A DNA stretch of 33,583 bases from Ramlibacter sp. (GTDB lineage: Bacteria; Pseudomonadota; Gammaproteobacteria; Burkholderiales; Burkholderiaceae_C). The stretch lies in NCBI GenBank assembly GCA_028291885.1, contig JAQGNJ010000038.1:1-33583 (forward strand), read 5' to 3'. The translations under genes were made by a program, and so were the position numbers. Below, piece by piece: positions 19,123 to 26,517 of the stretch. The notes beneath the pieces were generated by a model that saw only the letters and a program-made list of their open reading frames with translations, ran no database searches and was not told where the DNA came from. The stretch's first letter is position 1. Each line of letters starts with the position of its first letter.

Positions 19123-19449
19123 GTGAAGCCCGCCAGACCGCCGCTGGTGCAATCGTGGAAACACGGCACTGGAGGAACGTCCGGACTGCACAGGGCAGCG
19201 TAGGAGGTAACACCTCTCCACCGCGAGGTGAGGATCAGAGCAACAGAGACGAGTCGCAGCGGGCAACCGCTGCGGGTGAAACGGGCAATCTCTACGCGCA
19301 GCAATACCAAGTAGGCACACGTTGACGGGGCCCCCGGAGTGTGCGGGTAGGTAGCACCGAGCTGTCTGGCGACAGACAGCCCAGAGTAATGGCGGTCACG
19401 CCGGGGGCGACCCCGGCGCCACAGAATCCGGCTTACCGGCGGACTTCAC
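19123..19449 (+). ncRNA. rnpB: RNase P RNA, bacterial class A
   Basis: The ribozyme that trims 5' leaders from tRNA precursors. The ends pair as helix P1: GTGAAG (19123-19128) with CTTCAC (19444-19449), plus the neighbouring CCGCC/GGCGG. Conserved core segments appear in the right order: GGAGGAACGTCCGGAC, the AGAGCAACAGAGA element, GGTGAAACGG, and AATCCGGCTTACCGG near the 3' end. Length of about 327 bases fits class A. No protein-coding frame is credible here. It diverges from cysK. Confidence 0.95.
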
Positions 19450-19458
19450 ACTTTTTTT
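19444..19458 (+). terminator. 3' end of rnpB with T run
   Basis: The 3' strand of helix P1 is followed by CAC and seven T (19452-19458), consistent with intrinsic termination or a processed end of the RNase P RNA. Confidence 0.6.
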
Positions 19459-24747: not shown

Positions 24748-24866
24748 ATGAGCCGCCGGGCCGCCCCAAGGCGAATCCCGCAGCGCGTAGCGCGGAGGGT
24801 AGCCCAGTGACCCGCCGGGCCGCCCCAAGGCGAATCCCGCAGCGCGTAGCGCGGAGGGTAGTCCAG
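24748..24866 (+). repeat. 59-bp tandem repeat carrying SD and start codon upstream of xerC
   Basis: Two almost identical 59-base units (period set by CCGCCGGG at 24753 and 24812). Each ends with GGAGGGTAGCCCAGTGA or its GTCCAG variant, i.e. a Shine-Dalgarno followed by GTG. Starts fall at ATG 24748, GTG 24807 and GTG 24866 (xerC). The first two open 20-codon frames rich in Arg, each ending in TGA that overlaps the next start as GTGA. So the unit duplicates a translation-initiation module. Confidence 0.85.
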
Positions 24867-25804
24867 TGAGCGATGCCGCCGGCACGCAGCTGGTCGAGCG
24901 CTATCTCGAGCACGTGCGGGTCGAGAAGCGGCTCGCCCAGCGGACGGTGGAGCTCTACGCGCTGGACCTGCAAAAGCTCTGCGACTTCGCGGCCACGGCC
25001 GAAGTGGAACTGCTGCGCGTGCAGAACGCGCACATCCGGCGCTGGGTGGCGCAGATGCACGGCCGGGGCCGCAGCGGCCGCGGCATCGCGCTGATCCTCT
25101 CCGGCTGGCGCGGTTTCTACACCTGGCTGGGCCGCGAAGGACGGGTGCAGAGCAATCCCGTGCAGGACGTGCGCGCGCCCAAGTCCCCCAAGCCGCTGCC
25201 CAAGGCGCTTGGCGTCGACGAGTCGATGCAGCTGGCGGACTGGCACGACGAGGCCGCCGATCCCTGGCTGGAAGCGCGCGACGCCGCGATCGTCGAATTG
25301 CTTTACGGCTGCGGCCTGCGTGTCGGCGAACTGGTCGGCCTGGACGCGGTGGCGAGCAGCGCCGCGCGCGGCTGGATCGACATGCAGGCCGGCGAGGCCC
25401 ACGTGCTGGGCAAGGGCAGCAAGCGCCGCAGCGTGCCGGTCGGCCGCAAGGCGCTGCAGGCGCTGGGGCAATGGCTGCCACTGCGCAATGCTGCCGCGCC
25501 GGCGGCCGATCAGCCCGCCTTGTTCACGGGCCGCCACGGCACGCGCCTGACGGCGCAGGCCGTCTGGCAAAGGCTCAAGCAGCGCAGCATGAAGGCGGGC
25601 TTGGCGACGCCGGTCCATCCGCACATGCTGCGCCACTCCTTCGCCAGCCATGTGCTGCAGTCCAGCGGCGACCTGCGCGCCGTGCAGGAGCTGCTGGGGC
25701 ACGCCAACATCACCACGACCCAGGTCTACACGCGGCTGGACTTCCAGCACCTGGCCAAGGCGTACGACGCGGCGCATCCGCGCGCGCAACGCAAGCCCAA
25801 GTGA
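24866..25804 (+). CDS. xerC: Tyrosine recombinase XerC
   Basis: A 312-residue site-specific recombinase that, with XerD, resolves chromosome dimers at dif. An N-terminal SAM-like DNA-binding domain (about 8-95) precedes the catalytic domain with all active residues: Arg152 (GLRVGEL), Lys183 (GKGSKRR), His253 and Arg256 (HMLRHSF), His279 (LGHANI) and nucleophile Tyr288 (QVYTRLD). Length and dapF-DUF484 context favour XerC over XerD. GTG 24866 follows GGAGGG at the end of the second repeat unit and overlaps the TGA of a 20-codon mini-ORF, so its translation is probably coupled. Confidence 0.94.
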   Translation: MSDAAGTQLVERYLEHVRVEKRLAQRTVELYALDLQKLCDFAATAEVELLRVQNAHIRRWVAQMHGRGRSGRGIALILSGWRGFYTWLGREGRVQSNPVQDVRAPKSPKPLPKALGVDESMQLADWHDEAADPWLEARDAAIVELLYGCGLRVGELVGLDAVASSAARGWIDMQAGEAHVLGKGSKRRSVPVGRKALQALGQWLPLRNAAAPAADQPALFTGRHGTRLTAQAVWQRLKQRSMKAGLATPVHPHMLRHSFASHVLQSSGDLRAVQELLGHANITTTQVYTRLDFQHLAKAYDAAHPRAQRKPK

Positions 25805-25812
25805 GCGCCGGC

Positions 25813-26083
25813 TAGGGCCTGTTCACGCTATTTCCGGGGGCGCGAACGCGCTCAATCGGGCGTCAATCTAGGCGCACGCCGCCGCCCGCATCGACATGCG
25901 GGCAAGGCGGGTAACGACGAGTGGCGCCCGATTGGGCTCGTTCCCCTGCGGGGTTGCGGCCAAAAAGGCCATGCGCCGCGTTACGAAGCCTTGCCGGGGG
26001 GCGACCCCGGCGGCGTTTCGCGCCTTGCGCATGACCTTTTTGACGAGCAACGCGTCCCCCGGAAATAGCGTGAACAGGCCCTA
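25813..26083. mobile_element. MITE-like element, 271 bp, with 28-bp perfect terminal inverted repeats
   Basis: The ends (25813-25840 and 26056-26083) are perfect 28-bp inverted repeats beginning TAGGGCCTGTTCACGC. If the outer TA is the target duplication, it fits insertion at TA as in IS630/mariner-type transposition; an IS5-type target is possible too. No transposase frame is present. Inside are two nested stem-loops: CAATCGGGCG (25853-25862) with its complement at 25925-25934 around GCCCGCAT/ATGCGGGC, and an 18-base arm (25959-25976) with 26027-26044 around GCCGGGG/CCCCGGC. It lies between convergent xerC and the small minus-strand gene. Confidence 0.8.
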
Positions 26084-26422
26084 ATCTTCCAGCTGGTAGT
26101 CGATCGAGGGGCGGCCTCTGGCCTGGGCCGAGAGCTGCGTCCAGGCCTGGACCTCCTCGTCCGACGCGTGCCAGTCGCTGCCGTAGAGTTGCGGTCCGTG
26201 TTGATGCATGAAGAGCGCGACCCGGGCCGCGTCCGCTTCGCCGCGGTTCGCCAGCCAGGAGAAGTGATCGTAGGCCTCGGACCAGCGCATCGTCTGGTAG
26301 TGGCGGGCCGCTTCGGAGAAGCCCTCTTGCGGCGGGGCGCCGAGGGTGGAGGCGGCCGACGCGGTCCAGGGGGCGCCGATCCGGGCGACGGTGCACAGGC
26401 GTGAGGCGATGCAGGTGTTCAT
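26081..26422 (-). CDS. Hypothetical protein (113 aa, Sel1/TPR-like helical)
   Basis: A 113-residue protein starting at ATG 26422, behind AGGAG seven bases upstream; an in-frame start at 26449 is less well supported. Residues 40-75 (EAARHYQTMRWSEAYDHFSWLANRGEADAARVALFM) look like a single Sel1/TPR-type helical hairpin, and HGPQLYGSDW follows. Function unknown, though similar small proteins seem common in Burkholderiales. Its TAG stop is made by the last bases of the MITE-like element, so the insertion may have reset the C-terminus. Confidence 0.7.
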   Translation of the reverse strand: MNTCIASRLCTVARIGAPWTASAASTLGAPPQEGFSEAARHYQTMRWSEAYDHFSWLANRGEADAARVALFMHQHGPQLYGSDWHASDEEVQAWTQLSAQARGRPSIDYQLED

Positions 26423-26517
26423 GGCATGTCTCCTGGGGAGTGATGTCAAGACAATAGGCCGTCAGCCTGTCCGCGGCTGGCAAATAGCAGCCGCTTTCCC
26501 TGTGAAGAAATGGCGCG

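Follow-up and report, generated by a model that had tools for sequence, protein, structure and literature searches.

A dispersed non-coding palindromic element of Ramlibacter and related bacteria whose stems covary with almost no wobble pairing

Palindromic repeats that lack a transposase of their own are familiar from REPIN/RAYT systems, and covariation between paired positions is usually strong evidence for a functional RNA. Bacterial MITEs are small, and many are described as having TA ends and stable stem-loops (excerpts of PMC10969869 and PMC2229807). The ERIC, RUP and Correia/NEMIS repeats appear in the excerpted text of PMC2229807 as small, non-coding, multicopy elements that have terminal inverted repeats with TA and form long stem-loops in transcripts; CIR of Caulobacter appears there with two long inverted-repeat arms and a linker, and is set against repeats that pair end to end. 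The element analysed here, in a 33,583-nt stretch of Ramlibacter sp. DNA (the window), shares these traits of ERIC, RUP and Correia/NEMIS but is larger (about 270 bp against fewer than 200 bp in the same excerpt), carries two inverted arms with a common inner motif, combines variable ends with a conserved inner motif, often lies at stop codons and has matches in many families of its class. Its two arms and linker recall CIR, with the arms enclosed by a terminal stem. Compared with REPIN/RAYT, it is much larger and nested, and its presence does not track the Y1 transposase. Set beside these partial texts, the family fits the bacterial MITE kind, with ERIC, CIR and RUP as its nearest counterparts, and it is unusual even though the idea of an RNA made from one strand, raised in a first-pass annotation, is not supported. 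We found no description of the family in the literature searched; a subscription paper or the Polaromonas JS666 MITE study may contain one.

The features of the locus, and the RNA that served as a control, are as follows (window coordinates).
25813-26083, no strand assigned: whole element, 267 bp plus the TA/TA flank at both ends.
25813-25840, plus strand: left terminal inverted repeat, stem P1, starting TAGGGCCTG; 28 nt, 100% complementary to 26056-26083.
26056-26083, minus strand: right terminal inverted repeat, complement of 25813-25840.
25844-25862, no strand assigned: arm 1 outer stem, 5' side, partner of 25925-25943.
25925-25943, no strand assigned: arm 1 outer stem, 3' side, partner of 25844-25862.
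25870-25875, no strand assigned: inner motif AGGCGC on the left strand of the arm 1 internal loop, from column conservation.
25884-25903, no strand assigned: arm 1 inner hairpin, 8 bp, loop CGAC.
25911-25919, no strand assigned: conserved inner motif GTAACGACG (consensus GCAACGnCG) on the right strand of the arm 1 internal loop.
25943-25953, no strand assigned: linker mini-hairpin CCCC-TGC-GGGG, which joins the arms.
25959-25976, no strand assigned: arm 2 outer stem, 5' side, partner of 26027-26044.
25978-25984, no strand assigned: arm 2 inner motif GCGTTAC (consensus GCGTTGC), the right motif of arm 1 in reverse complement.
25993-26011, no strand assigned: arm 2 inner hairpin, 7 bp, GC.
26020-26027, no strand assigned: arm 2 inner motif GCGCCTTG, the left motif of arm 1 in reverse complement.
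26027-26044, no strand assigned: arm 2 outer stem, 3' side, partner of 25959-25976.
24866-25804, plus strand: tyrosine recombinase gene, which we take to be xerC (Phage_integrase 5e-39); its stop lies 8 nt ahead of the element.
26081-26449, minus strand: 122-aa ORF with no Pfam match, whose TAG stop is the right end of the element (CTA, 26081-26083).
19125-19451, plus strand: class A RNase P RNA (Rfam, 205.6 bits), the RNA control.

With its terminal inverted repeats, small size and non-coding status (the last taken from the ORF listing), the element has the traits of a MITE, and the window copy folds much as the first-pass annotation had drawn it. Checked letter by letter, the proposed arm 1 stem (25853-25862/25925-25934) is perfect, with 10/10 Watson-Crick pairs, and the arm 2 stem has 16/18, both exceptions being C.A on the plus strand and G.U on the minus strand. 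The inner hairpins of both arms are legible in the sequence, and the outer ends pair at 28/28 positions to close the expected cloverleaf. Arm 1 reaches further out than had been described, to 25844/25943; this outward part has one plus-strand wobble (T.G) and one mismatch of another kind, so that with these positions included the element overall does not favour the minus strand. The predicted minimum free energy is -192.5 kcal/mol for the plus strand (z = -13.99) and -192.7 kcal/mol for the minus strand (z = -14.27), with 0/200 shuffles as good in either case.

Copies of the element are widespread. Ten more places in its own genome, a 340-contig draft, hold full or partial copies; full copies in this genome measure 271 and 270 bp, forms without arm 2 measure 190, 187 and 187 bp, and a 105-bp form has lost most of both arms; besides these there are four partial copies (three at contig ends) and one end on its own. 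Other genomes contain end-only forms of 64, 56 and 51 bp and long forms of 312-351 bp with extra palindromic sequence within arm 2, and genome G030 contains a 160-bp perfect palindrome form. Among the long copies, L119, L120 and L122 have an additional palindromic insert inside arm 2, which is of the GGGGTCAGATTCCAA type in L120 and L122. By blastn, 23/60 genomes of the genus have matches. A covariance model built from 25 copies matches 40/59 genomes of the genus (E <= 1e-6), 66/150 genomes and 63/141 genera of the family, and 22/143 genomes of the class (E <= 1e-8 for both), counts that include the element's own genome and rest on rough E-values. Best-strand model matches are 260-274 nt long (42 loci), and the model hits both strands of most copies (83 matches at 42 loci) because the two arms are inverted versions of one module. 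The architecture is shared by 9/9 class-level loci, L245 included, which represent 9 of the 21 genomes that match besides the element's own.

The exact 23-base end occurs in 11 stretches of named genomes; 6 of them belong to Ramlibacter MAGs, 3 to a Burkholderiaceae MAG and 2 to one that is labelled Desulfovibrionaceae. Loci L057 and L059, shortened or end-only forms in the Desulfovibrionaceae-labelled MAG, reflect either wide transfer or a mis-binned contig. Plasmid and phage collections queried with the window copy gave no match, nor did the plasmid collection queried with a family-level copy. A class-level copy gave partial matches in 4 plasmid records (Azotobacter, Halomonas, Pseudomonas), and the three records examined, plasmids of Azotobacter chroococcum, Halomonas and Pseudomonas aeruginosa, hold a full-length model match. 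One single-contig genome has 17 near-identical copies (mean identity 0.959), and comparison of loci by flanks of 95 or 1495 bases gave no pair of copies from different genomes with both flanks in common. Loci L134 and L086, from different subfamilies and genomes, have right flanks that are 82% alike over 94 nt, a likeness that suggests independent insertions at one kind of site.

Comparison of copies bears out the proposal of a MITE-like element with a maintained fold: its copies are dispersed, and its stems are kept through compensatory change. Across 25 copies, with the structure taken from the same alignment, 97.5% of 2399 stem cells are standard pairs, 295 cells are changed on both sides against 76.7 in shuffles (0/500 as high), and both sides vary in 55/96 pairs (30.6 when shuffled). 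Helices 2, 5, 8 and 9, which belong to the inner arms, covary as strongly as the ends. Structures slid along the alignment pair only 33-43% of cells, a comparison that favours the unslid structure because it was derived from the alignment being scored.

We then counted pair changes over 116 copies in 8 sets by a strand-symmetric, tree-based procedure in which the structure was predicted without G-U. The count comprised 389 changes from one Watson-Crick pair to another, 71 to G.T (plus-strand wobble), 87 to A.C (minus-strand wobble) and 111 others. Set A contributed the 48 copies of standard size among 55 with both ends and 60 loci fetched, the second sample 17 of 20 loci fetched, and the family-level sample 51 of 60 fetched, all 60 of which entered the isolated-mismatch and stability counts. 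Pairs with fewer than 60% Watson-Crick cells and groups of fewer than four copies (G131, G190, G094 and G135, 9 copies) were dropped from the event count, and long-standing mismatches such as the arm 2 C.A enter only the per-sequence count of isolated mismatches. Taken together, the counts do not consistently favour RNA wobble on either strand: the difference between 87 and 71 events has p = 0.23.

A genuine RNA behaves otherwise. For RNase P, represented by 30 loci of the same genus out of 55 genomes with a match, a structure that allows G-U contains 277 G.T (11.2%) and 18 A.C among 2473 cells, against 143 G.T (3.1%) and 46 A.C among 4600 cells for set A read as the plus strand and 133 G.T (3.0%) and 26 A.C among 4407 cells for set A read as the minus strand. 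With G-U kept out of the structure, RNase P has 14 G.T and 3 A.C among 1823 cells and set A has 16 G.T and 36 A.C among 3976. Counted sequence by sequence on folds that exclude G-U, RNase P has 18 A.C and 10 G.T, so this form of the control is non-discriminating. Pairing in the element appears to be kept at the DNA level, almost only by Watson-Crick exchange.

The share of changes that are compensated is smallest in the youngest set (3/32 at 96% identity) and largest in the most diverged one (60/84 at 72%); the other sets, such as that at 77% identity with 154/228, fall between these extremes. Such a rise from one extreme to the other is as expected if mismatches arise freely and are resolved later. 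No orthologous pair was found among the copies compared, so in-place compensation was not seen, and selection in a moving lineage would look like in-place compensation. Template switching in DNA replication is described in excerpts of PMC8794818 as a source of multibase compensatory changes that keep stems perfect; that case is one of RNA genes, whereas the palindromic element here is dispersed and shows hardly any wobble. A natural family this large that covaries strongly and yet lacks the wobble pairing typical of RNA offers a test bed for the maintenance of hairpins at the DNA level, and it is a caution for RNA discovery by comparative genomics.

The element often lies at the ends of genes. 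Among 45 strong incoming ORFs in 70 loci, 29 stop exactly at the junction TAG, which consists of the TA flank and the element's first G; strong ORFs were defined by codon composition rather than annotation, and the count left out L245, whose locus is below the 3200-base limit. At L163, L172 and L208, incoming ORFs stop at the junction TAG on both sides. Many copies have TA at both ends, and the base ahead of TAG is C at 74, T at 23, G at 9 and A at 4 of the 110 ends with TAG (30 ends are without it). In genome G034 the junction TAG serves as the stop of a gene that, from its sequence, we take to be adk. Relatives of this gene stop at that codon in 22/29 cases (TGA 16, TAG 3, TAA 3), one stops a codon earlier and six stop 3 to 17 codons later; the ancestral stop cannot be told because most relatives have TGA, without TA. 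The adk relatives mark the insertion point, and their flanks diverge. Flanks were insufficiently syntenic in an empty-site comparison at xerC, in which minus-strand rows L145-L147 and L149 were not used.

The element is a dispersed, non-coding unit of nearly constant size with strict pairing, an inner motif and a frequent position at TAG stop codons, and we consider it probable that it is a non-autonomous mobile DNA element, mobilised in trans, with stems maintained as DNA. Insertion by a trans-acting mobiliser would take place at YTAR sites, at their TA. The element's first base is G, which together with TA would rebuild a TAG stop at either end, so that insertion into a TAG or TAA stop codon would be harmless. 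The stems may be maintained at the DNA level by either of two routes, which the data cannot separate: template switching in the hairpin at replication could copy or erase a mutation in one arm, or selection could act on the folded DNA strand in the moving lineage, with pairing needed to move. More tentatively, the element may be an inside-out mobile element that is recognised through its inner motifs, moves as folded DNA, homes to stop codons, rebuilds TAG and owes its palindromes to template switching. If this fuller version is true, covariation arises without RNA selection across many families of the class. Insertion into stop codons with a rebuilt TAG, if it occurs, would explain how a 270-bp repeat multiplies in compact genomes, and the mobiliser becomes a concrete target for search.

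Location at stop codons would also suit an RNA role on either strand, such as a bidirectional transcription barrier or an RNase III/mRNA-stability element between genes. Such a role needs both transcripts to pair perfectly and therefore allows no wobble, so that RNA selection acting on both strands would likewise leave no wobble preference; the architecture is strand-symmetric, and an ORF heuristic places 17 of 67 loci between convergent genes. The same heuristic nevertheless finds tandem genes on the two sides of 34 loci and divergent genes at 10, with 6 undecided, a barrier would seem to need less specificity than the size and inner motifs show, and the absence of shared insertions suggests a mobile element instead. 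We regard an either-strand RNA as unlikely.

The conserved parts of the element lie inside it. In an alignment of 28 representatives below 80% identity, fitted to the covariance model, the most informative columns include AGGCGC and GCAACG of arm 1, and their arm 2 reverse complements GCGTTGC and GCGCCT and the linker CCC..GGG are also highly informative, while the terminal stem is variable except for a moderately conserved TAGGGCCTG. Five copies (L173, L242, L246, L248 and L250) have ends quite different from those of other members. In a scan of copies by eye, the linker hairpin of L085 reads CCCGAAGGG and that of its close relatives CCCTTCGGG, its reverse complement, a possible loop inversion through template switching. 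The inner motifs, rather than the terminal repeats, are probably the recognition site of the mobiliser or of a host protein.

This pattern bears on a further alternative, an ordinary MITE of an undetected DDE insertion sequence, whose palindromes would persist solely through the need of the active lineage for matching ends. Like the bacterial MITEs of PMC2229807 and PMC10969869, as far as their excerpts describe them, the element is small and multicopy and has inverted repeats and TA ends; against this alternative, the terminal repeats are less conserved than the inner motifs, the inner arms covary as strongly as the ends, and in the single-contig genome G057 no two ends, with up to 2 mismatches tolerated, lie an insertion-sequence length apart. 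We consider it improbable. Searches aimed at the trans-acting mobiliser of the DNA element that we favour were negative within their scope. The end-pattern search found no autonomous copy in the four genomes it covered, which include one single-contig genome; nothing transposase-like stood out as an insertion-sequence partner among the places listed in six genomes, beside the 11 exact-end stretches of named genomes, or as a recurrent group among 523 protein fragments from the flanks of 70 loci. The largest group of neighbour proteins links five loci and reads, by our own reading rather than library annotation, like a signalling protein. The 11-mer with one mismatch is commoner than its reversed control in G057 only, 1/6 genomes, a nearly uninformative result. 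A link to the Y1 transposase was rejected: the gene is in 57/59 genomes of the genus and the element in 40/59, and G018 has 8 matches and no gene. Across the 59 genus genomes, the Y1 transposase-like gene is mostly present once per genome, with or without the element.

Very improbable is the reading from which the analysis departed, a structured RNA from the minus strand acting as a shared 3' UTR, terminator or small RNA, because the wobble preference it calls for is absent over 116 copies. The part of that reading that invoked selection for structure stands insofar as the fold is maintained by compensation; the minus-strand RNA is not supported. In its favour are the deep covariation, the two arm 2 mismatches that become minus-strand G.U, the frequency of the element at gene 3' ends, and set A, which leans to the minus strand in events (27 A.C against 14 G.T), in isolated mismatches (68 A.C against 32 G.T) and in stability. 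The other sets differ among themselves: events lean to the minus strand in G057B (13 against 8), to the plus strand in G194 (3 A.C against 8 G.T) and slightly to the plus strand in G089 (17 against 20), and isolated mismatches are 16 A.C against 34 G.T in G057B, while the family set has 88 and 69. The two strands have similar RNA folding energies, the minus one being the more stable in 34/48 copies of set A, 7/17 of the second sample and 34/60 of the family-level sample; the window copy itself folds equally well either way, and G.U makes up about 3% of set A cells against 11% in RNase P.

Gene context is similarly undecided as to strand. The suggestion of a shared 3' UTR is right about position, since many copies sit in or next to stop codons and so at 3' ends, but selection on a minus-strand RNA is not supported. 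Of 50 incoming ORFs in oriented loci, 28 enter at the 3' side (minus-strand transcript) and 22 at the 5' side (plus-strand transcript), so orientation toward incoming genes is not clearly biased. We found no promoter-like site in 25700-26500. Nor does the element look like an intrinsic terminator, which would be a GC stem with a U-run behind it: no terminator-like site overlaps it, the sole one lying outside at 26456-26468. At gathering score the element has no Rfam match, RNase P being the only match in the window. Rfam searches of four element loci gave sub-gathering matches only, the strongest being those of hairpin (microRNA) models to the palindrome L143. This locus (G030:C252:14795-15154) carries the ends and inner motifs of the element in a perfect palindrome of 160 bp that has almost no loop; it looks like one half copied back onto the other, and it could also be an assembly artefact.
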